Assembly: GCF_003932895.1 (NCBI RefSeq)
Contig: NZ_RQYW01000003.1
Span: forward strand, 1-64,000
Reading direction: 5' to 3'
Length of the DNA stretch: 64,000 bases
Source of the DNA: Leptotrichia sp. OH3620_COT-345
GTDB taxonomy: Bacteria > Fusobacteriota > Fusobacteriia > Fusobacteriales > Leptotrichiaceae
Shown piece after piece: positions 19,754 to 55,828 of this stretch. The notes beneath the pieces are model-generated. The model made no database searches. It was given only the letters and a program-made list of their open reading frames with translations, and was not told the DNA's origin. Made by a program: the position numbers and the translations under genes. How positions within the stretch are numbered: position 1 is the stretch's first letter; the number at the start of each line of letters is the position of its first letter.

Positions 19754-21877
19754 CTATTTATCTTTTTCTAGATTAACGTAATCACCATTCAGTTTCATTT
19801 TAAAATTAGCTTTGTATTCTTTTCCGTTTTTAGCTTTCAATTTAAATTCAACTTTTTCTCCGTTGATTAACTTAAGAGCATTTTTCTTATTTATCTTTAA
19901 CATTTGTTCAAAATATTTAGTTTCTTTCCATAAAGAAAACTTACAACCATTTTTATATTCTGAACAATAAAATGCTTTATTTTTTTCTAAAATATCTCCT
20001 TTTTCACATTTAGGACATTCACACAACACTTCCTTTTTTTCACTAATCACTGAAGTCTTAATTTTTGTATGATTATCTTCTATTATTTTTATAACTTGAT
20101 ACAGCACAAAGTCTGTCAGCTTTTCTTTTTTTGATTTTCCTTCTTTAATTTCTTCCTGAATAGACCACCATAACGCTGTCATATCTGCACTTTTAAGACT
20201 TTCGGGTAAAGTTGAAAGATATTCTTTAGCTAATTCTGTAGAAACTACTGTTTTTCCCTTTTTTTCTAAATACCCTCTTTTAAAAAGTTCCGTAATAATA
20301 TTTGCCCTTGTAGCAGTAGTTCCTATACTTCCATTTTCTCCTTTCTTTTCCTTATCTTTTTCTTTTAAGATCCCTCTTATTTTTTCATCTTTTACATATT
20401 TTGATATATTTGTCATATCTGACAATAAACTTGCCTCTGTATAAGGTTTTTTCGCTTTAGTTTCCTTCTCCTCAATTTTCATATTACCATTTTTTATAAT
20501 CACCGGATATTCTCCATTTTGAATATCATACAAATCATATTCTGTTTTTTCTTTTTCGTTATCATCTTCATAAATAACTTTATATCCTAACTCTAAAACT
20601 TTAACAGAAGAAACTTTAAATTCATTACTTTCAACATTTACTACTGCTTCTATTTTTTCAACTTTTTCTTTATCCATAAACTGAATAATATATCTCTTTG
20701 CTATCAATTCATAAATATTTTTTTCTTCTTGATTAAATTTTGATAATTCTCCACTAAAAGTTGGTATTATTGCATGATGAGCAGTTATATTTTTTTCATT
20801 GAAACATTTCGACTTATTTTCTTCATCGAAATTCAGTTTCAAATTTTCTAATCCAATTTTCTTCATTACTTCAGGAATTAATCTTACGGCTTCTTTAAAA
20901 TGCTCTTCAGACAGATATTCACAATCGGATCTATTATAAGTTATTGCTTTATGATTATCCCTTAAACTTTGAGTGATATCCTGTGTTTTTTGAGCAGAAT
21001 ATCCAAATTTATTATTAGCTTCTATTTGAAGCTTTGCAAGATTAAAAGGTAAAGGTGGTGAGTTATAACTTTCTTTTTTGTTAATTTTAACTATACCTGT
21101 TTTCGCCTCTATTTCTGATATAATTTTTTCTACAGTTTCTTTATCTTTAATCATGCCTTCTTCTATACTTTTCGGTACAGAATATTTTAATTTTAATATT
21201 TTATGATTAATTTTTATATTTAAATAAAGATCATAATATTTTTCTTTTACATGATTTTTTATTTCATAATCTCTATTTACTACCAATGCAAGAGTAGGAG
21301 TTTGGACTCTTCCTACAGTTAAAGGTTTGCTCGCATTATTGTATAAAGTAAAAAATCTGCTTAAATTAAATCCTACAATCATATCTGCAATTGCTCTTGC
21401 TTCAGCTGCTTTTCCTAAATTTACATAATTTAAATTGTAATCCATTTTCTGAAATGCTTTTTTTACTGCTTCTGTATTATTATCGTTTATCAAAATTCTC
21501 TTTACTACTCCATCATACTTACAATATTCCAATATTTCATCTATCAAATACTGACCTTCATCATCGGGATCTCCTGCATGAATGACTTCTTTTGTATTTT
21601 TCAAAAGCTCTTTTATATTTTTTACTATATTTTCTTTTCCTTTGATAGGAATTTTGCTCCATTTAGGAAAGTAAATCGGTAAATCTTCCATATTCCATTT
21701 TTTATACTTCTCTTCAATTTCTCCAGGATTTTTATGTCTTAAAATATGTCCCACAGCCCATACTATAGTATATTCTTTTGTTTCTATTTTATTATTAAAA
21801 TATTTTTTTTCTCCTTCAACTGCTAATGCTATTGCTTTTGCTAATTCGGGCTTTTCGGCTATTATAATTTTTTTCAT
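19754..21877 (-). CDS. topB: DNA topoisomerase III, element-encoded
   Basis: A 707-residue type IA topoisomerase. The N-terminal Toprim domain has Glu8 in AEKPELA and HAGDPDDEGQ at residues 100-109. The active-site Tyr314 is in AITYNRSDCEYL. A C-terminal four-cysteine zinc motif (CECPKCEKGDI then CSEYKNGC) is present. TopB homologues are standard cargo of conjugative elements, where they help resolve or process transferred DNA. GGAGG lies before the ATG. A dispersed palindrome (21894-21916) and the first small-RNA cassette lie just upstream on the opposite strand. Confidence 0.93.
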   Translation of the reverse strand: MKKIIIAEKPELAKAIALAVEGEKKYFNNKIETKEYTIVWAVGHILRHKNPGEIEEKYKKWNMEDLPIYFPKWSKIPIKGKENIVKNIKELLKNTKEVIHAGDPDDEGQYLIDEILEYCKYDGVVKRILINDNNTEAVKKAFQKMDYNLNYVNLGKAAEARAIADMIVGFNLSRFFTLYNNASKPLTVGRVQTPTLALVVNRDYEIKNHVKEKYYDLYLNIKINHKILKLKYSVPKSIEEGMIKDKETVEKIISEIEAKTGIVKINKKESYNSPPLPFNLAKLQIEANNKFGYSAQKTQDITQSLRDNHKAITYNRSDCEYLSEEHFKEAVRLIPEVMKKIGLENLKLNFDEENKSKCFNEKNITAHHAIIPTFSGELSKFNQEEKNIYELIAKRYIIQFMDKEKVEKIEAVVNVESNEFKVSSVKVLELGYKVIYEDDNEKEKTEYDLYDIQNGEYPVIIKNGNMKIEEKETKAKKPYTEASLLSDMTNISKYVKDEKIRGILKEKDKEKKGENGSIGTTATRANIITELFKRGYLEKKGKTVVSTELAKEYLSTLPESLKSADMTALWWSIQEEIKEGKSKKEKLTDFVLYQVIKIIEDNHTKIKTSVISEKKEVLCECPKCEKGDILEKNKAFYCSEYKNGCKFSLWKETKYFEQMLKINKKNALKLINGEKVEFKLKAKNGKEYKANFKMKLNGDYVNLEKDK

Positions 21878-21893
21878 ATATTTTCCTCCTTGT

Positions 21894-21916
21894 CACTCTA
21901 TATTAAATGTAGAGTG
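21894..21916. repeat. Dispersed 23-bp palindrome (copy 1)
   Basis: Arms CACTCTATA and TGTAGAGTG around TTAAA. It lies ten bases before the -35 of small-RNA cassette A. Confidence 0.7.
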
Positions 21917-21925
21917 CTTTATTAT

Positions 21926-21953
21926 TTGACATTTTTAAATTTTATGTTATAAT
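21926..21953 (+). promoter_or_regulatory. Promoter P1 of cassette A (small RNA)
   Basis: Perfect TTGACA (21926-21931), 16-base spacer ending TGT, perfect TATAAT (21948-21953): a near-consensus extended -10 promoter. Confidence 0.85.
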
Positions 21954-21959
21954 ATTTAT

Positions 21960-22041
21960 GTAACTCCCCCTAAGGAGTTCACTATAAATATAAGTTAAAT
22001 AAATTTGCGGTAAAGAAGACTGGTTTTTTCCAGTCTTTTTT
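21960..22041 (+). ncRNA. Cassette A putative antitoxin small RNA
   Basis: About 82 nt from the P1 start to an intrinsic terminator (GACTGG 22018-22023, loop, CCAGTC 22030-22035, six T). It starts with a hairpin AACTCC/GGAGTT. Bases 21982-21997 are perfectly complementary (16 nt) to 22076-22091 of the downstream peptide mRNA, reaching the first G of its GGAGG. Bases 22004-22010 pair with 22064-22070. Bases 21967-21975 (CCCCTAAGG) complement the mRNA's 3' hairpin at 22176-22184. The layout predicts an antitoxin RNA that blocks ribosome binding in trans. This is inference from sequence; no expression data. Confidence 0.75.
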
Positions 22042-22049
22042 GCTATAAT
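22041..22049 (+). promoter_or_regulatory. Promoter P2 of cassette A (peptide mRNA)
   Basis: An extended -10 element TGCTATAAT directly after the T-run of the small-RNA terminator. The -35 is poor. The same TGnTATAAT stands in cassettes C and D. Confidence 0.65.
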
Positions 22050-22102
22050 ATTTTGAACGAGTTCCGCAAAACTCGTAACTTATATTTATAGGAGGTATAC
22101 AT

Positions 22103-22162
22103 ATGCGTATATTATTTTTGTTTTTAGTATTTTTTTTACTAATTCAAAAAATTTTATACTAA
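22103..22162 (+). CDS. Cassette A 19-residue hydrophobic peptide, putative type I toxin
   Basis: ATG with a strong GGAGGT seven bases upstream encodes MRILFLFLVFFLLIQKILY and a TAA stop. The peptide is one short membrane segment ending in a basic/polar tail, comparable in size with Ibs-type toxins of type I toxin-antitoxin systems, though not recognisably homologous. The mRNA would start near 22056 and end with hairpin CCCC-TTA-GGGG (22174-22184). Its leader around the binding site is the target of the small RNA encoded just upstream on the same strand. All four cassettes encode exactly 19 residues. Confidence 0.75.
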   Translation: MRILFLFLVFFLLIQKILY

Positions 22163-22188
22163 TGTCGCCTCAACCCCTTAGGGGTACG

Positions 22189-22211
22189 CACTCTATATTA
22201 TGTATATAGTG
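22189..22211. repeat. Dispersed 23-bp palindrome (copy 2)
   Basis: Arms CACTCTATA and TATATAGTG. It is directly adjacent to the stop codon of the minus-strand gene ending at 22212 and closes cassette A on the right. Confidence 0.7.
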
Positions 22212-22481
22212 TTATCTTTCCCAATCTTTATCACTGCTTTCTATCCAAAAGTTTTCACTAGTATTTTCCTTTAATACTTCTTCTTTTTGTTTTCCGTGAA
22301 CTTTAAGATATTTAAGCATTTCCATTTCTGTTTCAAAATTTATTCTTTCTTCAATTTCTTCATTTTCTTCACTATAATACAAATGATTTATAAAATATTC
22401 TCCTGATAAATAACTTTTTCCATAATCTAAAATCATATCTGTTTCATTTTCTAAATACATATATTTTCCTTTTAATCCCAT
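22212..22481 (-). CDS. Hypothetical acidic protein with DWER C-terminal tail
   Basis: An 89-residue acidic protein that I do not recognise. It is rich in Glu and Tyr, with no signal peptide or membrane segment. Its last 13 residues, FWIESSDKDWER, closely resemble the ends of the primase-like protein and ArdC encoded next to it. GGAGGAGAT-type binding sequence precedes the ATG. The gene sits between small-RNA cassettes A and B and is bounded by palindromes on both sides. I infer that the tail is a shared signal, possibly for conjugative secretion; what the body does is unknown. Confidence 0.65.
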   Translation of the reverse strand: MGLKGKYMYLENETDMILDYGKSYLSGEYFINHLYYSEENEEIEERINFETEMEMLKYLKVHGKQKEEVLKENTSENFWIESSDKDWER

Positions 22482-22503
22482 TTTTATCTCCTCCTAATTT
22501 TTT

Positions 22504-22526
22504 CACTCTATATTAAATATATAGTG
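22504..22526. repeat. Dispersed 23-bp palindrome (copy 3)
   Basis: Arms CACTCTATATT and AATATATAGTG. Ten bases before the -35 of cassette B, the same spacing as in cassette A. Confidence 0.7.
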
Positions 22527-22535
22527 TTTTATTAT

Positions 22536-22563
22536 TTGACATTTTTAGATTTTATGTTATAAT
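22536..22563 (+). promoter_or_regulatory. Promoter P1 of cassette B (small RNA)
   Basis: TTGACA (22536-22541), 16-base spacer ending TGT, TATAAT (22558-22563). Confidence 0.85.
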
Positions 22564-22569
22564 ACTCGT

Positions 22570-22647
22570 GTAACTCCCCTAAGGAGTTTTACTATAGAAA
22601 AATATGTAAATTTTGCAGATAAGGACTGGATTTTTTCAGTCCTTTTT
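22570..22647 (+). ncRNA. Cassette B putative antitoxin small RNA
   Basis: About 78 nt ending in terminator GGACTG...CAGTCC plus five T (22623-22647). Bases 22595-22606 are complementary (12 nt) to 22680-22691 just before and into the peptide gene's AGGAGG. Bases 22612-22619 (TTTGCAGA) pair with 22666-22673. The 5' hairpin CCCCTAAGG (22576-22584) complements the mRNA 3' hairpin at 22776-22784. The pairing bases differ from cassette A (AGAAAAATATG instead of ATAAATATAAG), yet complementarity inside the cassette is preserved, which is strong evidence for selection on the interaction. Confidence 0.75.
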
Positions 22648-22649
22648 AG

Positions 22650-22655
22650 TATAAT
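22650..22655 (+). promoter_or_regulatory. Promoter P2 of cassette B (peptide mRNA)
   Basis: TATAAT right after the terminator T-run. The extension reads TAG instead of TGn, so this copy may be weaker. Confidence 0.5.
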
Positions 22656-22703
22656 TAATTGGGTTTCTGCAAAGACCTGCATATTTTTCTAGGAGGTATA
22701 CGT

Positions 22704-22763
22704 ATGCATATATTATTTTTGTTTTTAGTATTTTTTTTACTAATTCAAAAGATTTTATACTAA
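22704..22763 (+). CDS. Cassette B 19-residue hydrophobic peptide, putative type I toxin
   Basis: MHILFLFLVFFLLIQKILY, differing from the cassette A peptide only at residue 2. AGGAGGT lies seven bases before the ATG. The mRNA begins near 22662 and ends in the CCCC-TTA-GGGG hairpin (22774-22784). The coding part is almost identical to cassette A, while the untranslated segment that pairs with the small RNA has diverged in step with that RNA. This suggests the two copies are kept functionally separate. Confidence 0.75.
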   Translation: MHILFLFLVFFLLIQKILY

Positions 22764-22788
22764 CGTATCCTCACCCCTTAGGGGTATA

Positions 22789-22809
22789 CACTCTATACTA
22801 TATATAGTG
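22789..22809. repeat. Dispersed palindrome (copy 4, 21 bp)
   Basis: Arms CACTCTATA and TATATAGTG with a shortened centre. It touches the TAG stop of the minus-strand gene ending at 22810. Confidence 0.7.
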
Positions 22810-23712
22810 CTATCTTTCCCAATCTTTTTCATCATCTTTTATCCATAAATTTTCTTTTTCAATATTCTTTATCTCTTTTAAATCATCGTTCCAATCTTTA
22901 TTTTTCGATTTTTCTCTATAGATATTTAAATTACTGTATTCTTCTTTTATTACCTTATAAAAATTATCTCCTGCTTCATCATTGTCAGTACATATGTAAA
23001 TACTCTCGATATCTTCAGATAAATAACTTTTAAATATATCGTTTCTAACTCCTGAAATACTTAAAAATCTACTATTTTCTTCTACGTTTCCCTTATTTAA
23101 TTGTAAATAAGACAGTAGATCTATCGCAGCTTCGAAAATATATAAATTTTTTATTTCTTTATTATTTGTTATATTAAATCCGTAATGACTACTAGTATTT
23201 CTTTTAAATTTACTTTCTCCAGTACCTACTAAGTCATAGCCCTGTATTTTATTTCCAATATCCCTGATTGTAAAATTAACATTATCTCTCTCATCTAAAA
23301 AGATAATTTCTTTTTTATATAACGCTTCCACTATCTTTTTATTTATCCCTCTTTTTTCAGATAAATAATTAATTACTTTATTTAAATTATCTTTTTTTAT
23401 TGAAAATCCTTTCACAGAAGTTTTGCTGCTATATACATTACTTTCACTGGGTTTATATTTTTCATTTTTTATATCTTCTAAAAATTCTTCTACCTTTTCA
23501 AATATTTTCCTCCCTTCTATTCCATATAAGTTTTTAAGTAAGTCGTAATAATTCCCTTTTATATTTTTAGAGTTCCAGACAAATAATGAACCGGATAAAA
23601 TAAGGCTATCATGATCTTTTAATTTGTACCTCCGCCTTCCATGAGGAATTAAACTTTCTCCCATATATTCAAGAAGGTCTTTTAAATTTATATCGCTTAA
23701 ATTCGTATTCAT
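22810..23712 (-). CDS. Toprim-domain primase-like protein with DWER tail
   Basis: A 300-residue protein. The C-terminal half has a Toprim fold: conserved Glu in YIFEAAIDLLSYL and the acidic DxDxxG motif in ICTDNDEAGDNF. The N-terminal part (DLLEYMGESLIPHGRRRYKLKDHDSL) resembles the DUF3991/primase-associated domain found in relaxase- and ICE-encoded primase relatives. A primer-synthesis or single-strand maintenance role in transfer is likely. It ends NLWIKDDEKDWER, nearly identical to the end of ArdC, and the last ~46 nucleotides are almost the same in both genes. Attenuator-like leader RNA 1 is immediately upstream. Confidence 0.78.
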   Translation of the reverse strand: MNTNLSDINLKDLLEYMGESLIPHGRRRYKLKDHDSLILSGSLFVWNSKNIKGNYYDLLKNLYGIEGRKIFEKVEEFLEDIKNEKYKPSESNVYSSKTSVKGFSIKKDNLNKVINYLSEKRGINKKIVEALYKKEIIFLDERDNVNFTIRDIGNKIQGYDLVGTGESKFKRNTSSHYGFNITNNKEIKNLYIFEAAIDLLSYLQLNKGNVEENSRFLSISGVRNDIFKSYLSEDIESIYICTDNDEAGDNFYKVIKEEYSNLNIYREKSKNKDWNDDLKEIKNIEKENLWIKDDEKDWER

Positions 23713-23724
23713 AACTTTTCTCCT

Positions 23725-23810
23725 AAAAAAAGATAAAGGTATCCCATAAATGCAAATTCGTCGATTTGCTATTATGAAATACCTTTTTATGTCAATTCGC
23801 CGACTGACGG
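23725..23810 (-). promoter_or_regulatory. CGRCGA-loop attenuator leader 1 (upstream of the primase-like gene)
   Basis: Minus strand, 5' to 3': hairpin I, GTCAGT-CGGCGA-ATTGAC (23808-23791); then a terminator whose outer stem AAAGGTAT/ATACCTTT encloses hairpin II, GCAAAT-CGACGA-ATTTGC (23769-23752); then seven T; then at once AGGAG and the start codon. A terminator lying directly on the ribosome binding site implies regulated antitermination. Three further copies stand before other transfer operons. Confidence 0.75.
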
Positions 23811-23837
23811 TTTCATTCCTCTATTTGATTTTTAAAT

Positions 23838-23858
23838 ACTCTATGTAAAATATAGAGT
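23838..23858. repeat. Dispersed palindrome (copy 5)
   Basis: Perfect arms ACTCTAT and ATAGAGT, eleven bases beyond the stop of the NlpC/P60 gene. Confidence 0.6.
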
Positions 23859-23869
23859 CCTTATTTAAA

Positions 23870-24415
23870 TTATATTACTGATATAGCCCATTTGAATTTT
23901 TCTCTGTAAAAACCTGAAAATTCAGATATAACAACCTTTTTACTCGCTGAACTTGCATGAATGAATCTGTTATCTCCCATATAAATTCCCACATGGGAAA
24001 TACGTCCTTTTCCTAATGTTTCAAAAAAAAGAAGATCTCCTTTCCTAATCTTTGATATACGGGGTTTAAACTGTGCCTGTTCATAAGAAACTCTAGGTAA
24101 GTTTATTCCCATTGTTTGCTTATATACGTATTGTACAAAACTAGAACAATCAAATTTATCTGTTCCACTAGCACCCCATAAATATGGACTCCCTAGTTTT
24201 TTTGTAGCAAAATTTATTATTTCATTTCTAATATCTAAATTTGTTTCATTAGAAGATTTATTAATTACTTTTATTTTATCTATTTTATCCTTCTTCTTTT
24301 TTACAAATCCGTAATCTGTATTAGTACCTCTGTTTATAAAACTTATTCCACTTGCGATTGTATTATTCAATATAACAAGAAATAAGAAGGAATAGATAGA
24401 AATTTTTCTTTTCAT
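23870..24415 (-). CDS. NlpC/P60 family peptidoglycan hydrolase
   Basis: A 181-residue secreted cysteine peptidase. A signal peptide (residues 1-22) is followed by a short linker and a C-terminal NlpC/P60 domain with catalytic Cys90 in KFDCSSFVQYVYK, His141 in SHVGIYMGDNRF, and a third polar residue at His153. Such enzymes cut D-Glu-diaminopimelate bonds in the cell wall. In this element it probably opens peptidoglycan locally for the conjugation channel. It is one of three wall hydrolases in the element, with 36588-37271 and the fused protein at 27344-28792. Confidence 0.85.
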   Translation of the reverse strand: MKRKISIYSFLFLVILNNTIASGISFINRGTNTDYGFVKKKKDKIDKIKVINKSSNETNLDIRNEIINFATKKLGSPYLWGASGTDKFDCSSFVQYVYKQTMGINLPRVSYEQAQFKPRISKIRKGDLLFFETLGKGRISHVGIYMGDNRFIHASSASKKVVISEFSGFYREKFKWAISVI

Positions 24416-24430
24416 TTTGTATCCTTTCTT

Positions 24431-24452
24431 ACTCTATACTGAGTATATAGTG
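24431..24452. repeat. Dispersed palindrome (copy 6)
   Basis: Arms ACTCTATACT and AGTATATAGTG; one base from the TAA stop of ardC. Confidence 0.65.
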
Positions 24453-24453
24453 C

Positions 24454-25434
24454 TTATCTTTCCCAATCCTTTTCATCATCTTTTATCCATAAATTTTCTT
24501 GTTTTTCTTCTAATTTGATATTTTTTAATTGTTCTCTATATGGTTCTAATATATAGTCATTTATTTTTTGTGCTTCTTTTATGGCTTCAAATAATACTCC
24601 GGGATTTTCTTTTAATATGCTATTCCAACTTTTGATGTATGCTGCATTATTTTCAAACTCTTTATCTTCTATTTTCAGTTTAGTTTCTTGTTGTATAAAT
24701 ATTGATGAAAATTCCGCTATTAACTCTTCTTTGGCATAACTTTTATCTCCGAATTTACCAGACATATCCCGATTTAATCTTTTCTTATGTCCTGTTGAAT
24801 GTGCCATTTCATGTAGTGCAATAGAGTATAAATCTTCTATTCTATTAAACTTTTCTTTTTTAGGAAGATGAATACTATCATTAATTAAATTATAAAAAGC
24901 ATTATTTAATTGATCATACTTTATCGACACTTCAAAATTATCAAGGATTTGTTCTATTATCTCATTTCTCTTACTACAATCTATTTGAATTTTTTGATTA
25001 TATTTCTCAATTCCATGTATTTGCTCCGCATTAAACACATTATATTTTTTAGTAATAATATAAATATTTTCTGATAAATATTTACTTTTTTCTTCTTCAG
25101 ACATATTTTTTATAGTTTCATTATTAAATTCCTTTTTTGTATTTTTATCAGTTAATTGATAAAAATACACCGGTGTTGATTTTTCTCCTTTTTTTACTTG
25201 AAAATTGTTTTCTCTAGCTTGATTATAAGTCATCCATCTAGGGTCATTATATCCATTTTTTATTGATGAAATTAACAGTCTTATATTATTAGACCCCTTA
25301 TATTCTTTATTTGATATTGGGTTATTTGGTTCATCTAAACTTCTCCATGTTTTTCTCCAGGATAAGTCTTCTTTTTCTATTAGCTTTATAATATCATTTA
25401 CTAATTCTTGTTTTTCATTACTCAATTTTGCCAT
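24454..25434 (-). CDS. ardC: ArdC-like antirestriction protein with DWER tail
   Basis: A 326-residue ArdC-family protein. The N-terminal single-strand-DNA-binding region shows the family segments LSWRKTWRSL, GSNNIRLLISS and WMTYNQA. It is followed by a zincin-like metallopeptidase domain with HEMAHSTGHKKRL and a later Glu in AKEELIAEF. ArdC proteins shield incoming single-stranded DNA from restriction, and plasmid pSa ArdC is reported to travel with the DNA into the recipient. The C-terminus NLWIKDDEKDWER matches that of the primase-like protein. It follows a 41-codon gene by one base and is likely coupled to it. Confidence 0.85.
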   Translation of the reverse strand: MAKLSNEKQELVNDIIKLIEKEDLSWRKTWRSLDEPNNPISNKEYKGSNNIRLLISSIKNGYNDPRWMTYNQARENNFQVKKGEKSTPVYFYQLTDKNTKKEFNNETIKNMSEEEKSKYLSENIYIITKKYNVFNAEQIHGIEKYNQKIQIDCSKRNEIIEQILDNFEVSIKYDQLNNAFYNLINDSIHLPKKEKFNRIEDLYSIALHEMAHSTGHKKRLNRDMSGKFGDKSYAKEELIAEFSSIFIQQETKLKIEDKEFENNAAYIKSWNSILKENPGVLFEAIKEAQKINDYILEPYREQLKNIKLEEKQENLWIKDDEKDWER

Positions 25435-25435
25435 A

Positions 25436-25561
25436 TTAATCTTCTCCTTTTTCTATTATTTCCATAACTGATTTTTCAGATATTTCATCAGGAATTTCAT
25501 TTTCAAAAGGATTTTCCTCTTTAAAATCATATAATTTCATCAAGCTTTCAATTATTTTCAT
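25436..25561 (-). CDS. Small acidic hypothetical protein upstream of ardC
   Basis: A 41-residue open frame: MKIIESLMKLYDFKEENPFE, then NEIPDEISEKSVMEIIEKGED. AAAGGAA stands at proper spacing before the ATG, and the stop is one base from the ardC start, suggesting translational coupling. It is acidic, probably helical, and has no recognised domain. Its reality rests on the ribosome binding site, the tight junction and codon-like composition only. Confidence 0.5.
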   Translation of the reverse strand: MKIIESLMKLYDFKEENPFENEIPDEISEKSVMEIIEKGED

Positions 25562-25574
25562 ATTTTTCCTTTCC

Positions 25575-25597
25575 CACTCTATACTAAATATACAGTG
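25575..25597. repeat. Dispersed 23-bp palindrome (copy 7)
   Basis: Arms CACTCTATA and TATACAGTG; eleven bases before the -35 of cassette C. Confidence 0.7.
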
Positions 25598-25607
25598 TTT
25601 ATTTCAT

Positions 25608-25635
25608 TTGACTTTTTTGTAATTTATGATATAAT
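25608..25635 (+). promoter_or_regulatory. Promoter P1 of cassette C (small RNA)
   Basis: TTGACT (25608-25613), 16-base spacer ending TGA, TATAAT (25630-25635). Confidence 0.8.
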
Positions 25636-25641
25636 ATCAGT

Positions 25642-25716
25642 GTAAATCCCTAAAGGGAACTTATATTAATGATAAAAAATGGTGACAAATCAGACTGGAA
25701 AATACCAGTCTTTTTT
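25642..25716 (+). ncRNA. Cassette C putative antitoxin small RNA
   Basis: About 75 nt with a 5' hairpin TCCC-TAA-AGGGA and terminator GACTGG/CCAGTC plus six T (25693-25716). Bases 25660-25674 are complementary (15 nt) to 25750-25764, covering the start of the peptide gene's AAGGAG. Bases 25680-25685 (TGGTGA) pair with 25740-25745. Only the terminator and general plan are shared with cassettes A and B; the pairing sequences are unrelated but still self-complementary within the cassette. Confidence 0.75.
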
Positions 25717-25724
25717 GTTATAAT
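25716..25724 (+). promoter_or_regulatory. Promoter P2 of cassette C (peptide mRNA)
   Basis: Extended -10 TGTTATAAT at the end of the terminator T-run. Confidence 0.65.
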
Positions 25725-25775
25725 GTTTTTTGAACGAGTTCACCACTCGTATCATTAATATAAGGAGTGATGTCT

Positions 25776-25835
25776 ATGAAGACATTTATTTTTATTTTAG
25801 CAATATTTTTGCTAATTCAGAGGTTCTTGCTCTAA
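25776..25835 (+). CDS. Cassette C 19-residue hydrophobic peptide, putative type I toxin
   Basis: MKTFIFILAIFLLIQRFLL, with AAGGAG nine bases before the ATG. It shares the plan of the A and B peptides, including the LLIQ(K/R) core: a short basic N-terminus, one membrane segment, and a basic residue near the C-terminus. A CCC-TAC-GGGG hairpin follows (25849-25858). The gene is convergent with the minus-strand gene ending at 25886. Confidence 0.72.
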   Translation: MKTFIFILAIFLLIQRFLL

Positions 25836-25885
25836 ATAACTCACTCAACCCTACGGGGTATTATTTACTTCTTATCAACATTTTT

Positions 25886-26302
25886 TTATTTTTCAAATAT
25901 TTCTTCATAATCTGATTTTCCGTCTTTATCTGTATCCTTATCCCACGGATCTGTTCCATAATACAATTCTTGCCTATTAGTAAGACCATCTCCGTCATAA
26001 TCCTTATCCATTATAAGTCTTTTATCCATCGGAATTATTATTTGCAAGAGATTTTCCTTATTGTCTCTTAAATCTTTGTATATTTCCAATACCTCATTCA
26101 CAGACTTTTTCAGTTCCTTTTCTTCAATGGAGTTTCCGTCTATTCTTAATTTTAAATTTTCCAATTTCCTAATCTGTTTTTCCAGTTCATTCAAAAATAA
26201 TTCTTCCGTATACTCCTTTACATTCTGTGATTTCATAGTTTCAAATATATTTCCAACCTTTTCATAATTTCCGTCAAAAAAATCTCTATTCATTATTACC
26301 AC
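25886..26302 (-). CDS. Hypothetical protein with thrombospondin-type-3-like calcium-binding repeats
   Basis: A 138-residue protein without a signal peptide. Residues ~1-95 are helical and charged. The C-terminus contains an acidic repeat, DYDGDGLTNRQE followed by GTDPWDKDTDKDGKSDYEE, the DxDxDG pattern of TSP3-type calcium sites usually found on exported proteins. It overlaps the upstream TraD-like gene by 17 bases, placing it in the transfer operon. Role unknown; an intracellular, metal-stabilised partner of the relaxosome is one possibility. Confidence 0.6.
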   Translation of the reverse strand: MVIMNRDFFDGNYEKVGNIFETMKSQNVKEYTEELFLNELEKQIRKLENLKLRIDGNSIEEKELKKSVNEVLEIYKDLRDNKENLLQIIIPMDKRLIMDKDYDGDGLTNRQELYYGTDPWDKDTDKDGKSDYEEIFEK

Positions 26303-26570
26303 TCTCTTTCATTTGTTTTCTAAGCTGATTTCTTTTAATTTTAAATTTATTACCTAAACTTCTGGTTTTTTCTTTTTCCTCATCACTCATGTCGAATACT
26401 TTTAATAAAACACCTAACAAAAAATCCTCATCCATGTCGTCAATTCCCAACATCTCAAATATTGCACCCTTTTTTACAAGATGATGTTGCCGTTCCTTCC
26501 TTGTTCTGGGCTCTTTAATTGCCCTATTTTTCTGCAAAATTTTTATCACTTCTTTTTCAATGTTTGTCAT
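26286..26570 (-). CDS. TraD/MobC-like small mobilization protein
   Basis: A 94-residue basic, helical protein. The segment RKERQHHLVKKGAIFEMLGI followed by DDMDEDFLLGVLL fits the small conjugal transfer protein TraD family (as in Ti and RSF1010-type mobilization regions: RxxRERTRxLIxxGALxxxAGL...LLGALL). Such proteins accompany the relaxase at the transfer origin. It overlaps both neighbours (14 bases with the peptidase gene, 17 with the calcium-repeat protein), so the three are translated together. Confidence 0.65.
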   Translation of the reverse strand: MTNIEKEVIKILQKNRAIKEPRTRKERQHHLVKKGAIFEMLGIDDMDEDFLLGVLLKVFDMSDEEKEKTRSLGNKFKIKRNQLRKQMKESGNNE

Positions 26571-27033
26571 TATTTCCTCCTAATTTTAATAATAAATATG
26601 CTTTATATTTTATTTTTTCTTTATCAATAACTCCGTAATATCTACTATCAAGTGAATTCTCATTTTCAGAAAAAGTGAAGTATTCTTCTTTTTTCAATGT
26701 ATTATTTTTAATTTTTGAAGGTATATTATATTTTAAAATACCTTCCCTTTTTCCATTTATAAATAATGTGTTTTCAGTTATTTCAATTTTATCCCCTTCT
26801 GCGGCTTTTACTTTTTTTAAAGCCGGTAAGTTTTGTAGTTTTTTATCTGCATACTTTTTATATTCTTTAGGAGTTTCATATACAATATAGTCATTTATTT
26901 TATAATTCTTACTGAATCTGTTTATTATATAAATCCCTGTCGGAGAGCTTTCACTAATATTAATAATTATATTAGAAACTGTAAATCCGATTAACAAAAG
27001 AACTCCTGTTAAAATTAAAACTATTTTTTTCAT
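26557..27033 (-). CDS. traF: TraF-like S26 peptidase, pilin maturation
   Basis: A 158-residue membrane-anchored serine peptidase of family S26, similar in plan to RP4 TraF, which trims and cyclises the TrbC pilin. Residues 5-25 form a signal/membrane anchor. The catalytic Ser lies in ISESSPTGIYI and the Lys in LPALKKVKAAEGDKI. A second conserved box is FTFSENENSLDSRYYG, matching the GDNxxxSxDSR box of signal peptidases. Its expected substrate is the TrbC-like pilin at 46260-46646. Cassette D lies just upstream on the opposite strand. Confidence 0.8.
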   Translation of the reverse strand: MKKIVLILTGVLLLIGFTVSNIIINISESSPTGIYIINRFSKNYKINDYIVYETPKEYKKYADKKLQNLPALKKVKAAEGDKIEITENTLFINGKREGILKYNIPSKIKNNTLKKEEYFTFSENENSLDSRYYGVIDKEKIKYKAYLLLKLGGNNDKH

Positions 27034-27065
27034 TTTATCTCCTTAAAACTTGTGTTATACCCAAT

Positions 27066-27093
27066 TTGACAATTTTATATTTTATGATATAAT
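27066..27093 (+). promoter_or_regulatory. Promoter P1 of cassette D (small RNA)
   Basis: TTGACA (27066-27071), 16-base spacer ending TGA, TATAAT (27088-27093). Confidence 0.85.
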
Positions 27094-27099
27094 ACTGTC

Positions 27100-27187
27100 A
27101 TAGAAGATTACTCTTCTACCCTTAAGGGAAACTTATAAGAATTTAAAAATACGTTTCAATTAAGACTGGTTTTTCCCAGTCTTTTTT
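27100..27187 (+). ncRNA. Cassette D putative antitoxin small RNA
   Basis: About 88 nt: hairpin TAGAAGA...TCTTCTA, then CCCTTAAGGG, then terminator GACTGG/CCAGTC plus six T (27164-27187). Bases 27132-27147 are complementary (16 nt) to 27216-27231, ending on the first G of the peptide gene's GGAGG. CGTT at 27152-27155 pairs with AACG at 27209-27212. This is the most diverged copy, yet the complementarity sits at the same place relative to both the terminator and the ribosome binding site. Confidence 0.75.
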
Positions 27188-27195
27188 GATATAAT
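27187..27195 (+). promoter_or_regulatory. Promoter P2 of cassette D (peptide mRNA)
   Basis: Extended -10 TGATATAAT directly after the terminator T-run. Confidence 0.65.
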
Positions 27196-27242
27196 TTTTT
27201 TGAGGGGTAACGCCCTTTAAATTCTTATAAGGAGGTAGTAGC

Positions 27243-27302
27243 ATGGAAAATGTTATTACTATTATTGTTATGATGTATATCATATACAGATTAACTAAGT
27301 AG
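27243..27302 (+). CDS. Cassette D 19-residue hydrophobic peptide, putative type I toxin
   Basis: MENVITIIVMMYIIYRLTK, with GGAGGT at eight bases before the ATG. The sequence is unrelated to the A-C peptides except for length and plan: a hydrophobic centre and a basic tail. A CCCTTAGGGG terminator-like hairpin followed by a T-run (27328-27346) ends the message. Confidence 0.72.
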   Translation: MENVITIIVMMYIIYRLTK

Positions 27303-27343
27303 TTTTAATTTTACCTCTACTCCTCAACCCTTAGGGGTATTTT

Positions 27344-28792
27344 TTAAAAACTTATTTCTATTTTATGGATTACTGTATAAATTATAAATATAAGAAATAT
27401 GTATAGTATGAAATTTCCTGTAAGTATTGTCTCTATATCTTTCAATGAATCAACTAAATTTTGAAAAGTATTATTTTCAGATAAAACCTTAATCCCTATA
27501 ATAGCAAAGAAGTTAATTGAAACCAGTTTTAGTATAAAATTTATAATCATACTAAAGATTTTCCCTACATTATAATACTGTCTTGTTTCATCTAATATTC
27601 CGAGAGTAAGAAATATAGGAGATAAACTTAAAGATAATTCAAATCCGATTAATAGTTTAAGCAAATCAAACATAATAAACAGAAAAGCAACATTAATCAG
27701 TACAAATATCACCAGTAATGCTATTGTAACTAACAAATTTTTTTGAAAATCCAAAGGATTTATCCAGTTTATTTTAGTAATAGCTTCAAATACTTCAGAA
27801 GCTAATTTCTCTTTTAATGTCCATATTTCATTCAGCTTTTGAGTCTTTTCACCTGTGAGTTTTTCAAGTATTCCATAGCTTATATCTTTTCCCATTTGAA
27901 TTAACTCACCGCTAAATATCTTATTAGTTATAAAAATATAAAATACAAATCCGAAAGTTCTTTTAAAAATAGTTCCTGAAATAAATCCTTTAATATTATT
28001 ATCAGCAATAGCAAAAATGGAATCTTTTATAACTTGAATTATAAAGAAAGTAGTCATAATGAAAATAAATATATTCCCTATGTTCCCAAAATTATCAAGC
28101 CCTTCTTTGAGAAATCCCATAATGTTATCCGCAAATGTGTCCCAGTCCATTTTATTTGAAGGTTCGTATTGAATATTCACAGTATCTTGTGAAGCTGTAC
28201 CATAAGCATTTGTGCTGATACTTGAACCATTTGGTGGAACAACTACTTGTCCGATTGAATTAATTGGTGTGTATCCATTGTTTATCAATATTTGTGTTGC
28301 ACTGGTTGCTCCAATATACGAACCTCCTCTATAAGTTCTTACATCTATAATATCAATCACTGTTCCTCTCGAACTGGAAGCATGAGCCATCTTAAATTTT
28401 CCATTTCCCAAATTTTCAAGTACAATTCCCACATGTCCATACCCTTTACTTCCTTGAGCTCCAAAATTTAAAAGATCTCCGGGTTTTATCTGATCAAATG
28501 AAGTTCTTTTTACTTGTCCAGCTCCTCTTATTCCGGCAGTCGTAGTTGAGGCACCACCTTTACCAGTGACTCCTCCGTTCATTCCTGCAGCTGCGGTTGC
28601 TCTTCCCACATATGAGGAACAATCAAAATATCCCCCCCTCATTCTATATTGATTGCTATAAGGTCTATTCAAATTATTAACTGCATAATTTATTATATCT
28701 TGTCTAAATTTTGTATCATCATAATTCCCTTTATTTGCAAACGATAAAATACTTAAACAGATAAAACTGAATATCATTATTATTTTTCTCAT
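27344..28792 (-). CDS. NlpC/P60 hydrolase fused to a TrbL/VirB6-like membrane domain
   Basis: A 482-residue protein starting at the ATG at 28790-28792; a longer reading frame upstream runs through the structured leader and is not credible. Signal peptide at residues 1-19. Residues 25-160 form an NlpC/P60 domain with Cys58 in YFDCSSYVGRA, His120 in GYGHVGIV and His137. After a linker, residues ~230-480 hold six or so membrane segments like those of VirB6/TrbL inner-membrane channel proteins. The fusion would tether a wall hydrolase to the secretion channel. Leader RNA 2 lies immediately upstream. Confidence 0.75.
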   Translation of the reverse strand: MRKIIMIFSFICLSILSFANKGNYDDTKFRQDIINYAVNNLNRPYSNQYRMRGGYFDCSSYVGRATAAAGMNGGVTGKGGASTTTAGIRGAGQVKRTSFDQIKPGDLLNFGAQGSKGYGHVGIVLENLGNGKFKMAHASSSRGTVIDIIDVRTYRGGSYIGATSATQILINNGYTPINSIGQVVVPPNGSSISTNAYGTASQDTVNIQYEPSNKMDWDTFADNIMGFLKEGLDNFGNIGNIFIFIMTTFFIIQVIKDSIFAIADNNIKGFISGTIFKRTFGFVFYIFITNKIFSGELIQMGKDISYGILEKLTGEKTQKLNEIWTLKEKLASEVFEAITKINWINPLDFQKNLLVTIALLVIFVLINVAFLFIMFDLLKLLIGFELSLSLSPIFLTLGILDETRQYYNVGKIFSMIINFILKLVSINFFAIIGIKVLSENNTFQNLVDSLKDIETILTGNFILYIFLIFIIYTVIHKIEISF

Positions 28793-29944: not shown

Positions 29945-30193
29945 CTATCTTTCCCAATTTTTATTTTTTTCTTCTAATAATTCTATCCTCTTTTCTAAAC
30001 TTATAATCTTTTCATTTAACTCTTCATTACTTTTTTCCAATACTTCTATTTTTTTACGATCTGAGTTGGTTGCTCTTATTACTTTATTAATTTGGTCAAT
30101 TATTTTTTTTATTATACCGGTATCTTCTACATATTGTAGATTTTCTCTAGCTCTTTGTTCCATATCCAGTATATCATCATAGCTCATTGACAT
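29945..30193 (-). CDS. Coiled-coil protein with NWER tail
   Basis: An 82-residue protein. Residues ~35-78 are a continuous heptad-like coiled coil (EKSNEELNEKIISLEKRIEL). It ends EEKNKNWER, a shorter version of the DWER tail on ArdC, the primase-like protein and the 22212-22481 product. GAAAGGAGAT precedes the ATG. No function recognised; the tail suggests the same targeting as the other tagged proteins. Confidence 0.6.
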   Translation of the reverse strand: MSMSYDDILDMEQRARENLQYVEDTGIIKKIIDQINKVIRATNSDRKKIEVLEKSNEELNEKIISLEKRIELLEEKNKNWER

Positions 30194-37408: not shown

Positions 37409-38080
37409 TCATCTTTCTTTTTCTTCGGTTTCAGTTTCATTTTCCCAGAAATGTTTCTCTTTATCTTCTTTAAAAGAAAATAATTCATATTTTTTTGTTT
37501 TGTCATTATATTTTGAAATTTCAGTGATTTTTTCAAATATTCTGCTGTTTTCAAAATAATTTATATCTTCCCTTGCAAAATAAGTTTCCAGTATATCCTT
37601 CGTTCTATTATCAACTTCAAATTCTGTTATTATATCTCCGTATTCTTCTTTTCTTATTCCTAAATGAAGAAACTGATTATTTTTTGTCTGAACAACTAAG
37701 TAATTACTTTTTATTTGAGTATATTGATTCGTCTGTTCAAAAATATATCCATTTTCCAAATTTTCCATAAATTCTTTGAAAGTATTAATTCTGTTGGCTA
37801 CACTATCAATCTTATTTGCATTATGTTCAGCTATTAAATCATATATATCCTGATCGGATAGATTTTCTTCATTTATTTTGTTATATAATCTTTGACCTTT
37901 TAGCACTCCATGTTTACTTTCATTATCATTGATATACTGTAATCCTAATAAATGAGGAAGAGATTTATTGTTTATTTCTATAAAAAATTCCTTACTTTTA
38001 CTTTTTATGCATATATCTTCCTTGTCATATTTGGAAAACCATTTAAATATCTCCTGAACCTTGTAAGATTGCTCTCTCAT
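37409..38080 (-). CDS. Unknown protein, possible PBECR-type nuclease-like domain, EEKER tail
   Basis: A 223-residue protein starting at the ATG at 38080 behind GGAGGTAAAA. The N-terminal half contains LPHLLGLQYIN and HGVLKGQRLYNKI, which recall phage PBECR (Barnase/EndoU/ColicinE5-D/RelE-like) domains; this is a tentative resemblance from memory. No signal peptide. It ends FWENETETEEKER, like the 38654-39337 product (DWENEAETEEKER). If the tail is a secretion signal, this could be a toxin-like protein sent to recipients or competitors. No immunity gene is evident, unless it is 38130-38531 just upstream. Confidence 0.5.
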   Translation of the reverse strand: MREQSYKVQEIFKWFSKYDKEDICIKSKSKEFFIEINNKSLPHLLGLQYINDNESKHGVLKGQRLYNKINEENLSDQDIYDLIAEHNANKIDSVANRINTFKEFMENLENGYIFEQTNQYTQIKSNYLVVQTKNNQFLHLGIRKEEYGDIITEFEVDNRTKDILETYFAREDINYFENSRIFEKITEISKYNDKTKKYELFSFKEDKEKHFWENETETEEKER

Positions 38081-38094
38081 TTTTACCTCCAAGT

Positions 38095-38653: not shown

Positions 38654-39337
38654 TTATCTCTCCTTTTCTTCAGTTTCAGCTTCATTTTCCCAATCTGAAT
38701 TTTCTTTTTCCTTGTTTTCTTTTATATGTTGTTTAACTTCTTCTCTTTTCAAAACCTTATTCAAAATATCACCTCTATCAATTAATATAAACTTTTCTTC
38801 ATTATCTTTTTCTTTTGATATTTTTGTTGTAAACAGTACTTTATTTACTGTCAGCTCTTTCTGTGCTTCCAGAAAATCCTTAAAGTTTAATTTAGAAGCC
38901 TTTCTCACCGTTTTTGAATCAAGATATACAAGTTCACCTAAATTTTCTTTATATGTGCTATAAATCAATTTTGCATTATCGGATAAAGTGTTTAATTTAT
39001 CCTCTTTAACTTTTTCAATCTCTTCTCTTCTAGCCAGTATTTCCGCCTCTTTTTCTTCGTATTTATTTTTATAGTCAACTGCCTTGTTCTTATCTATAAA
39101 GTATTTCATTTTGGGCATTTCAAATACTGAACCGTCATAATTTATTTTTGCCTCTACAGATTGATGAAAAAATATTTTATTCTCCTGAACTAATTCCTTA
39201 AATGCCGTTTTAAATTTTTCGTCATCATTGATTCCCATTTTATCCTGTATCTGACTTCTGTTTAATGAAGTATACCCGATTTCATTATTTGTCTTTTCTT
39301 CTAAAAATTTCATAATCTGATCTTTCATTTTCATCAT
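38654..39337 (-). CDS. Winged-helix-like protein with EEKER tail
   Basis: A 227-residue charged protein. Residues ~1-75 (DQIMKFLEEKTNNEIGYTSL, then RSQIQDKMGINDDEKFKTAFKEL) look like a winged-helix domain, and a second similar unit follows near residue 120 (KLIYSTYKENLGELVYLDSK) after a coiled-coil linker. It ends SDWENEAETEEKER, sharing the acidic, tryptophan-containing tail of the 37409-38080 product. The start could be ATG codon 1, 2 or 4. A DNA-binding role at the transfer origin or in the recipient is a guess. Confidence 0.55.
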   Translation of the reverse strand: MMKMKDQIMKFLEEKTNNEIGYTSLNRSQIQDKMGINDDEKFKTAFKELVQENKIFFHQSVEAKINYDGSVFEMPKMKYFIDKNKAVDYKNKYEEKEAEILARREEIEKVKEDKLNTLSDNAKLIYSTYKENLGELVYLDSKTVRKASKLNFKDFLEAQKELTVNKVLFTTKISKEKDNEEKFILIDRGDILNKVLKREEVKQHIKENKEKENSDWENEAETEEKER

Positions 39338-51780: not shown

Positions 51781-52800
51781 CTAATAAACTAATTTATTTA
51801 TAACATCTCTTAATTCTTCTATACTCCAATGAGTATAAATCCCGTCCGTAATGTCTTTTACCTTATGTCCGACAATATTTTTTACTTTTGAAGCTGGTAC
51901 ATCTTTTATTCTTCTCATTTTGGTTATAAAAGTATGACGTATTGAATGTAAGTTTCCTTCAACATCGTATTCCTTTAAAATATTATTGAAACGATTTTTT
52001 AAAGTGCCATAGTCATCTTCAAAAAACATTTTTCTTTTTTCACTCATATATTTTTTTACAATGGGCAGAACTAAATTATGAATAGGTATCCGTCTATTTA
52101 TTCCCGCTTCTGTTTTTGAACCTGTTATTAAATACTTTTCTTTTAAATTTATATTTTCATTTTCTATTCTAAATAAATCAACACTTCTCATTCCGGTATA
52201 AAAAAGCAGTAAAACCATTGCAACATATATATTGTTTGTACACTCATAATTTTCCCATAACATTCTTACAAACTCATCTTTAAATATTACTCTATCAACT
52301 GTTCTTATTATCTGGTCGGAAGATTCTAAATATAAAGAAATATTTTCCTTCACTATACGTTGCTTCATTGCTTCCACATAAATTGATTTTAAAACTGTTA
52401 AAGCTGTTCTTCCTTTGTTTTTAGGATAATTGTTCAATCTATTCTGATAATCACTATAATCTAAAGATATAAATGAATCTTCCAAGATTTCCTCAAAAAT
52501 TACGGTGAAATCTCTACAATATCTATTGAATGTTTCTTCTGTTTTAATACTTTTGGCATGTTTTGATATTTTCCATTTATTAAATAGATCAACTAATTTC
52601 AATTCAGAATACTCTATATTCAAATTTCTGGAATTATATTCACGCAACATCTCCTGTGCTTCTTTCTGTGTTCTGTAGCTTCCGATAATAGGTCTTTTAT
52701 ATTTCCCATTTATCAAACGGGCAGGTTCTCTTACAATCCAAGGCTTTCTAGATTTTTCTTTTCGTTTGTAAACACTCCCTGTTCCATTAGCATTCCTCAT
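51781..52800 (-). CDS. int: Tyrosine site-specific integrase
   Basis: A 339-residue phage-type integrase starting at the ATG at 52800 (MRNANGTGSVYKRK) behind AAAGGAAA; an in-frame ATG 15 bases upstream has no binding site. An AP2-like arm-binding N-terminus (GSYRTQKEAQEML) and a core-binding domain precede the catalytic domain. The catalytic residues are Arg in TGMRSVDLF, HxxR in LHSIRHTF, His in VGHKV and Tyr in DGIYTHW. It would integrate the element at tRNA-Cys. A relic of a second integrase end is at 12049-12135. Confidence 0.93.
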   Translation of the reverse strand: MRNANGTGSVYKRKEKSRKPWIVREPARLINGKYKRPIIGSYRTQKEAQEMLREYNSRNLNIEYSELKLVDLFNKWKISKHAKSIKTEETFNRYCRDFTVIFEEILEDSFISLDYSDYQNRLNNYPKNKGRTALTVLKSIYVEAMKQRIVKENISLYLESSDQIIRTVDRVIFKDEFVRMLWENYECTNNIYVAMVLLLFYTGMRSVDLFRIENENINLKEKYLITGSKTEAGINRRIPIHNLVLPIVKKYMSEKRKMFFEDDYGTLKNRFNNILKEYDVEGNLHSIRHTFITKMRRIKDVPASKVKNIVGHKVKDITDGIYTHWSIEELRDVINKLVY

Positions 52801-52820
52801 TATTTTTCCTTTCACTTTAT

Positions 52821-55592: not shown

Positions 55593-55762
55593 AATATGTT
55601 GTCAGTATGTTGCCAAATAAATTTAAATAATAACAAATTTAAGTAAATTATAACAAATTATAGCTATCTTCAAAATATCATAAATAAAATAAAAATGTGC
55701 AATTCAGTATAAATACTGTCTTGCACTATATATCCATTTTTTAGTTATATTAGTGGAGGCGA
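55593..55762. repeat. Right end of the integrative element (attR), 170-bp direct repeat
   Basis: Nearly identical to 12843-13012. It begins in the TGTTGTCAGTATG-type repeats and runs into the 3' end of tRNA-Cys (TGGAGGCGA at 55754-55762). Short TTGTCARTRTG direct repeats just inside the element (55586-55611, and 13058-13077 at the left end) may be arm sites for the integrase. Confidence 0.82.
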
Positions 55763-55828
55763 CAACCAGATTCGAACTGGTGTACAAGGTTTTGCAGACC
55801 TCTGCCTAAGCCCCTCGACCATGTCGCC
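55754..55828 (-). tRNA. tRNA-Cys (GCA)
   Basis: Minus strand: acceptor arms GGCGACA and TGTCGCC, discriminator T, encoded CCA. The T loop is GTTCGAATC. The anticodon loop CTGCAAA gives anticodon GCA. The gene is intact and serves as the attachment site of the element; its 3' end is copied at the left boundary. Confidence 0.95.

Follow-up and report, generated by a model that had tools for sequence, protein, structure and literature searches.

Among the described type I toxin-antitoxin systems, TisB/IstR-1, ZorO/OrzO, ShoB/OhsC, DinQ/AgrB and TimP/TimR combine a short small RNA (sRNA), encoded clear of the toxin gene and bearing an antisense stretch, with a small hydrophobic peptide, the two being expressed from separate promoters. 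Their genes are divergent (PMC4147584; PMC5668327; PMC8167048), and the sRNAs mostly bind far upstream of the Shine-Dalgarno (SD) sequence (PMC4147584; PMC5668327; for TimR PMC8167048). Four cassettes in a 64,000-nucleotide (nt) stretch of contig NZ_RQYW01000003.1 from Leptotrichia sp. OH3620_COT-345, here called the window, share these traits, but their two genes run in the same direction with the RNA first, and the antisense block enters the SD sequence. The cassettes are most likely type I toxin-antitoxin-like modules made of two genes on one strand, and they very probably form a previously unrecognised family with a same-strand layout. An earlier inspection of the DNA (the sequence-only reading) had proposed a new type I family, and conserved, co-varying complementarity now supports this, the toxin-antitoxin label itself being drawn from sequence. 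The accompanying statement that known trans-type systems are mostly divergent or overlapping agrees with two reviews (PMC4147584; PMC5668327), although a third words the possible arrangements as 'divergent, convergent or parallel', the passage in question giving no parallel example (PMC8167048).

Each sRNA in the window shares with its own messenger RNA (mRNA) an outer block of exact Watson-Crick complementarity that touches the SD sequence and measures 16, 12, 15 and 16 nt in cassettes 1 to 4, whereas non-cognate combinations among the four do not exceed 9 nt. The length and position of these blocks are as originally claimed, and so is the observation that the pairing bases differ between copies while complementarity is kept. 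When each copy was subjected to 500 dinucleotide shuffles, the observed block length was reached 0, 1, 0 and 0 times. A second block, predicted at 4-8 nt, lies just 5' of the sRNA terminator and spans 7, 8, 6 and 4 nt (TTTGCGG/CCGCAAA, TTTGCAGA/TCTGCAAA, TGGTGA/TCACCA and CGTT/AACG); its target is the loop of the mRNA 5' hairpin. In the modelled structures this block is placed as expected for a kissing contact, at which pairing would nucleate before extending to the ribosome-binding site. Chance complementarity was ruled out by the shuffles, the cross-pairs and conservation.

A promoter and terminator scan of window positions 21700-27500 ranks the four sRNA promoters first, in keeping with their description as near-consensus; they match the consensus at 12, 12, 12 and 11 of 12 positions and have an extended -10 and a spacer of 16 nt. 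The scan also recovers all four terminators that had been named, with 9 terminator-like sites found against 0.9 expected. A second -10 on each terminator, followed by a 19-codon hydrophobic open reading frame, is present in every cassette. The predicted sRNA folds consist of a 5' hairpin and a terminator hairpin separated by a mostly unpaired antisense stretch, and those of the mRNAs of a 5' hairpin followed by an open target stretch up to the first SD base. The features are the following, all on the plus strand, with the sRNA ends predicted:

21926-21953, plus: cassette 1 sRNA promoter, TTGACA-16-TGTTATAAT, 12/12, extended -10
21960-22044, plus: cassette 1 sRNA with 5' hairpin, single-stranded antisense stretch and terminator, start placed about 7 nt past the -10
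21982-21997, plus: cassette 1 antisense outer block, pairs with 22076-22091
22004-22010, plus: cassette 1 antisense inner block TTTGCGG, pairs with loop 22064-22070
22044-22049, plus: cassette 1 mRNA -10 TGCTATAAT, on the terminator T-tract, kept in A2
22057-22076, plus: cassette 1 mRNA 5' hairpin, its loop containing the kissing block
22076-22091, plus: cassette 1 sRNA target, last base is the first G of the SD (GGAGG, 22091-22095)
22103-22162, plus: cassette 1 peptide gene, MRILFLFLVFFLLIQKILY, 19 residues
22168-22185, plus: cassette 1 mRNA 3' end, anti-SD CCUC and hairpin ACCCCUUAGGGGU
22536-22563, plus: cassette 2 sRNA promoter, 12/12
22570-22649, plus: cassette 2 sRNA
22595-22606, plus: cassette 2 outer block, pairs with 22680-22691
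22612-22619, plus: cassette 2 inner block TTTGCAGA, pairs with 22666-22673
22650-22655, plus: cassette 2 mRNA -10
22704-22763, plus: cassette 2 peptide gene, MHILFLFLVFFLLIQKILY, 19 residues
22765-22785, plus: cassette 2 mRNA 3' end, anti-SD GUAUCCUC and hairpin
25608-25635, plus: cassette 3 sRNA promoter, 11/12
25642-25719, plus: cassette 3 sRNA
25660-25674, plus: cassette 3 outer block, pairs with 25750-25764
25680-25685, plus: cassette 3 inner block TGGTGA, pairs with 25740-25745
25719-25724, plus: cassette 3 mRNA -10
25776-25835, plus: cassette 3 peptide gene, MKTFIFILAIFLLIQRFLL, 19 residues
25841-25859, plus: cassette 3 mRNA 3' end, anti-SD UCACUC and hairpin, fits the altered SD GGAGUGA
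27066-27093, plus: cassette 4 sRNA promoter, 12/12
27100-27189, plus: cassette 4 sRNA
27132-27147, plus: cassette 4 outer block, pairs with 27216-27231
27152-27155, plus: cassette 4 inner block CGTT, pairs with 27209-27212, 4 nt only
27190-27195, plus: cassette 4 mRNA -10
27243-27302, plus: cassette 4 peptide gene, MENVITIIVMMYIIYRLTK, 19 residues
27317-27338, plus: cassette 4 mRNA 3' end, anti-SD CUACUCCUC and hairpin

The proposed sRNA length of 75-88 nt depends on predicted ends, and the peptide length of 19 residues holds within the window but widens to 18-21 residues in relatives. As a separate observation, the sRNA 5' hairpin (CCCUAAGG type; window 21963-21979) resembles the mRNA 3' hairpin (CCCUUAGGGG type; 22173-22185) in most cassettes; the two could kiss or share a protein.

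Relatives were collected by BLAST and with a covariance model built from 16 cassettes. The covariance-model search places cassettes in 21 of 33 Leptotrichiaceae genomes and six of 11 genera, often several per genome, while none of 65 other Fusobacteriota genomes yielded one with covariance model R1 and stricter filters; a BLAST search with cassette 1 gave no match among plasmids and phages. Tandem arrays with a period of about 290-300 base pairs (bp) occur in genomes G015 (contig C1, 1943131-1944583) and G017 (contig C78, 89-804). In all intact cassettes the genes do not overlap and lie on the same strand with the sRNA upstream, and an extended -10 (TGn) stands between the two arms in 35 of 46. 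About 45 distinct intact cassettes were read, in which the antisense block almost always comprises 10-17 bp from the first SD base. At each of positions 1-9, numbered from the SD, the two RNAs can pair in 43-45 of 45 cassettes, and a single position shows as many as six pair types. With equal sliding freedom the mean SD-anchored score of 46 distinct cassettes is 13.3 for cognate and 5.6 for non-cognate partners, and the best of 10,000 permutations has a mean of 7.1. Conservation of complementarity in other genomes, on which the proposal had been staked beforehand, speaks strongly in its favour and supports the view that the RNA would pair with the peptide mRNA.

Several mRNAs find their partner in another cassette. 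The two G018 cassettes at 581264 and 583085 show no more than 6 bp in cis, but each sRNA perfectly complements the mRNA of the other (CTTTATATAACGTTT/AAACGTTATATAAAG, 15 bp; CTCATATACAAAT/ATTTGTATATGAG, 13 bp), and the kissing blocks are likewise exchanged (ATGCCA and TATGCTA). In G005 the partner of the mRNA at 15967 is the sRNA at 15526, in the adjacent unit (14 bp). In G015 the sRNA at 1944466 complements the mRNA at 1944298 over 11 exact bp lengthened by G-U pairs; the sequences of this trans pair also contain TTACTGA/TCAGTAA. Since these trans partners are hard to explain otherwise, the RNAs probably act in trans as separate molecules, and the G018 partners argue against a single uninterrupted transcript per locus.

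The peptides have 18-21 residues in nearly all intact cassettes, are hydrophobic with a grand average of hydropathy (GRAVY) of about 0.5-2.6, usually bear a net charge of +1 or +2 and fall into several subfamilies. In five subfamilies the ratio of nonsynonymous to synonymous polymorphism (pN/pS) is 0.28-0.51; the peptide sequence is therefore under purifying selection. The predicted product is a small hydrophobic, presumably membrane-bound peptide and in this resembles type I toxins, which usually form a single helix. No Pfam or NCBIfam match was obtained for the peptides, profile searches with 20 residues having little power, and the Rfam search gave no match at gathering threshold except tRNA, with weak ones far below the thresholds (microRNAs, TarA, STnc100). 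Matches in the family genomes, 11 strong ones for one peptide and eight for another, adjoin an sRNA in 19 of 19 cases; no convincing peptide match lies outside cassettes in these genomes, three extra matches of the first peptide (E 0.1-0.9) being at chance level. On the other hand, about ten sRNA copies have lost their peptide; two such sRNAs, in G009 and G011, retain complementarity of 15 + 7 nt to an intact mRNA from a sister species. This asymmetry, sRNA without peptide but no convincing peptide without sRNA, is the pattern that a toxin and its antitoxin would leave; the sRNA search was tuned to the RNA, so that only the peptide side of the comparison is unbiased. A decayed cassette with altered start codon and broken terminator lies elsewhere in the source genome (G000, contig C4, 67218-67337).

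All four window cassettes are located on the plus strand in gaps between minus-strand protein genes of an integrative and conjugative element (ICE). These genes encode VirB4, VirB8, VirB10/TrbI, VirB11, a TraG/VirD4 coupling protein, a MobA/L relaxase, a topoisomerase, an ArdC antirestriction protein and a tyrosine integrase. The relatives of the window genome include Sebaldella termitidis, also of the family Leptotrichiaceae, and both plasmids of S. termitidis ATCC 33386 (NC_013518, NC_013519) carry cassettes in gaps without a listed gene. One further cassette shares a prophage contig with genes for terminase and other phage functions, and others occupy chromosomal gaps, some next to restriction or Abi genes. 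On pSTERM01 (NC_013518.1, 26150-30403) the cassette adjoins MazEF, TIR and SIR2 genes, a possible defence or stabilisation cluster.

The mRNA contains a further element that the sequence-only reading did not mention, just as it overlooked the kissing-loop character of the second block and the partners in trans. Between the stop codon and the 3' hairpin lies an anti-SD that tracks changes at and beyond the SD core, as seen in the pairs GGAGGAAUAC/GUAUUCCUC, GGAGGAAUGU/ACAUUCCUC, GAGG[U]AGUAG/CUACUCCUC, GAGG[U]AGCAG/CUGCUCCUC, GAGGU[A]CUG/CAGACCUC and GAGG[U]GUACUA/UAGUACCCUC (bracketed bases bulge) and in GAGUGA/UCACUC of window copy 3. None of 10,000 permutations gave SD/3'-end duplexes as strong as the cognate ones (mean -11.3 for cognate versus -9.2 kcal/mol), and the predicted minimum-energy fold has the SD shut by the 3' end for 45 of 49 mRNAs compared with 48% when the tail is shuffled. 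The hok and aapA mRNAs are inert until their 3' ends are trimmed, by means of a 3' element pairing with the SD (PMC8167048; PMC6733600). By analogy, the anti-SD would keep the full-length peptide mRNA translationally inert until its 3' end is trimmed.

Taken as toxin-antitoxin modules, the cassettes may work as follows. A strong, constitutive-looking promoter would produce the short sRNA with its 5' hairpin, unstructured antisense stretch and terminator, while the extended -10 on that terminator would start a separate mRNA for the membrane peptide of 18-21 residues, the presumed toxin. This mRNA might be controlled at two or three levels, of which the anti-SD is one. The sRNA would first contact the loop of the mRNA 5' hairpin via the kissing block and then zip along the single-stranded target through the first SD base, which would keep ribosomes off and probably attract RNase III. 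A read-through transcript would hold both arms and could fold shut on itself. As the pairs diversify, each RNA would come to silence its own peptide, and partners could be exchanged when cassettes recombine. A cell that lost an ICE, plasmid or prophage carrying the module would be punished for it. A more far-reaching model, which we put forward only tentatively and think somewhat less likely than not to hold as a whole, is a fast-diversifying lock-and-key system in which near-identical toxic peptides are governed by private two-block RNA codes, tandem multiplication and recombination at the shared terminator/promoter junction reshuffle control of toxins by RNAs, toxin-less chromosomal RNAs provide anti-addiction against toxins arriving on plasmids, ICEs and phages, and self-silencing read-through makes the same-strand arrangement fail-safe.

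A number of points weigh against the toxin-antitoxin interpretation or parts of it. While the sequence itself shows the anatomy, the co-varying pairings, the purifying selection on the peptide, the trans partners and the mobile locations, we infer the RNA ends, separate transcription, translation and toxicity, and likewise 3' trimming, the translation block and post-segregational killing. The permutation tests ignore kinship among cassettes, which were moreover collected partly by their pairing; for these reasons the within-genome matrix of sRNAs against mRNAs is the fairer check, and its diagonal stands out in most genomes with intact cassettes. The 4-nt kissing block of copy 4 is weak on its own, as is the 3' anti-SD of window copy 1, and the CCUC of the anti-SD is common to any SD, hence part of that signal is generic. 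Furthermore, it is not evident how a stabilising role would apply to the many copies in relatives that seem to be chromosomal.

The most serious alternative, which we nevertheless regard as unlikely, is an antisense-regulated membrane microprotein whose translation is controlled by the sRNA and whose role is benign, be it regulatory or structural. Regulation is well supported, and the support so far bears on it rather than on toxicity; purifying selection on the peptides and the many copies on large chromosomal contigs would suit such a protein. It fits poorly with the ICE, plasmid and prophage locations, the tandem arrays, the strongly divergent private RNA-RNA codes for near-identical peptides and the retention of sRNAs after peptide loss when the peptides found all adjoin an sRNA. 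Size and composition are, in addition, those of the IbsC-type toxins (19 residues).

Because both arms lie on the same strand, each cassette is a nested inverted repeat, and a read-through RNA would fold accordingly; a single continuous transcript could therefore form a long cis hairpin with the 'terminator' as apical stem, serving as an attenuator or self-sequestering leader. This is improbable given the conserved extended -10 between the arms, which is followed by the mRNA 5' hairpin, the reciprocal pairing in trans and not in cis in G018, the neighbour-unit partners of the G005 and G015 mRNAs, and the lack of a same-strand downstream gene in the window for an attenuator to control. A type III system such as ToxI/ToxN, in which the RNA antitoxin gene, a terminator and the toxin gene follow each other on one strand (PMC8167048; PMC4147584), can practically be dismissed, since ToxI repeats bind an endoribonuclease protein whereas the cassettes have neither tandem-repeat RNA nor a gene for an endoribonuclease or ToxN-like protein, their product is a hydrophobic peptide of 18-21 residues and the conserved property of their RNA is complementarity to the mRNA of that peptide.

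Some further observations concern the ICE itself. Within window 19754-55828 the element carries a conjugation gene set and the integrase (51781-52815), and the tRNA-Cys at 55754-55828 might serve as its attachment site. A 21-bp near-palindrome, ACTCTATATTAAATATAGAGT, occurs at about eight window sites (21895, 22190, 22505, 23838, 25576, 37295, 37384 and 40679; 14 strand matches against 0.01 expected). The sites are mostly apparently intergenic in the ICE, several flank cassettes 1-3, and they might serve the element as operators or as bidirectional terminators. ICE proteins that are otherwise unrelated, the ArdC homologue and a Toprim protein among them, have similar charged tails at their C termini (DKDWER, DEKDWER, NKNWER, ETEEKER), which could be a common signal for translocation by the type IV secretion system:

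22212-22481, minus: ICE gene, similar charged tail
22810-23712, minus: ICE gene, similar charged tail
24454-25434, minus: ICE gene, similar charged tail
29945-30193, minus: ICE gene, similar charged tail
37409-38092, minus: ICE gene, similar charged tail
38654-39337, minus: ICE gene, similar charged tail

According to a paper from 2025, type I systems are known only from Proteobacteria, Firmicutes and Tenericutes, to which its authors argue Cyanobacteria should be added (PMC12390103); our search of a literature library for Leptotrichia together with type I toxin-antitoxin found no paper. If the toxin-antitoxin interpretation is true, the cassettes provide a type I case in Fusobacteriota. The same-strand order escapes pipelines that seek opposite-strand antitoxins (as in PMC12390103), and similar systems may therefore be overlooked elsewhere. 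About 45 natural RNA pairs, swapped partners included, make the specificity and evolution of RNA-RNA recognition directly testable.

No sequence relation to the trans-type type I systems was found in the Rfam, Pfam and NCBIfam searches, and the other named type I systems have overlapping genes. AapA1/IsoA1 and Hok/Sok resemble the cassettes in the mRNA 3' element that pairs with the SD, the stable 5' stem-loop and the several copies per genome (PMC8167048; PMC6733600), but their antitoxins are encoded opposite the toxin mRNA, whereas the cassette sRNA is a separate upstream gene on the same strand; by the tests run the cassette peptides are unrelated to AapA1 and Hok. Ibs/Sib is likewise multi-copy with a hydrophobic toxin of 19 residues, and Sib, like the cassette sRNA, has two target-recognition domains and covers the ribosome-binding site (PMC4147584; PMC8309996). 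Sib is fully antisense to ibs across the whole gene, in contrast to the cassettes, which have no antisense overlap and no Pfam, NCBIfam or Rfam match to this family. Fst/RNA II (par of pAD1) shares a plasmid-borne peptide toxin and an antitoxin that blocks ribosomes via short complementary elements, but its convergent genes, common terminator and direct repeats are unlike the cassettes (PMC4147584). As far as the tests run can tell, the cassettes stand outside every described family tested, with a layout that differs from that of every named system checked.

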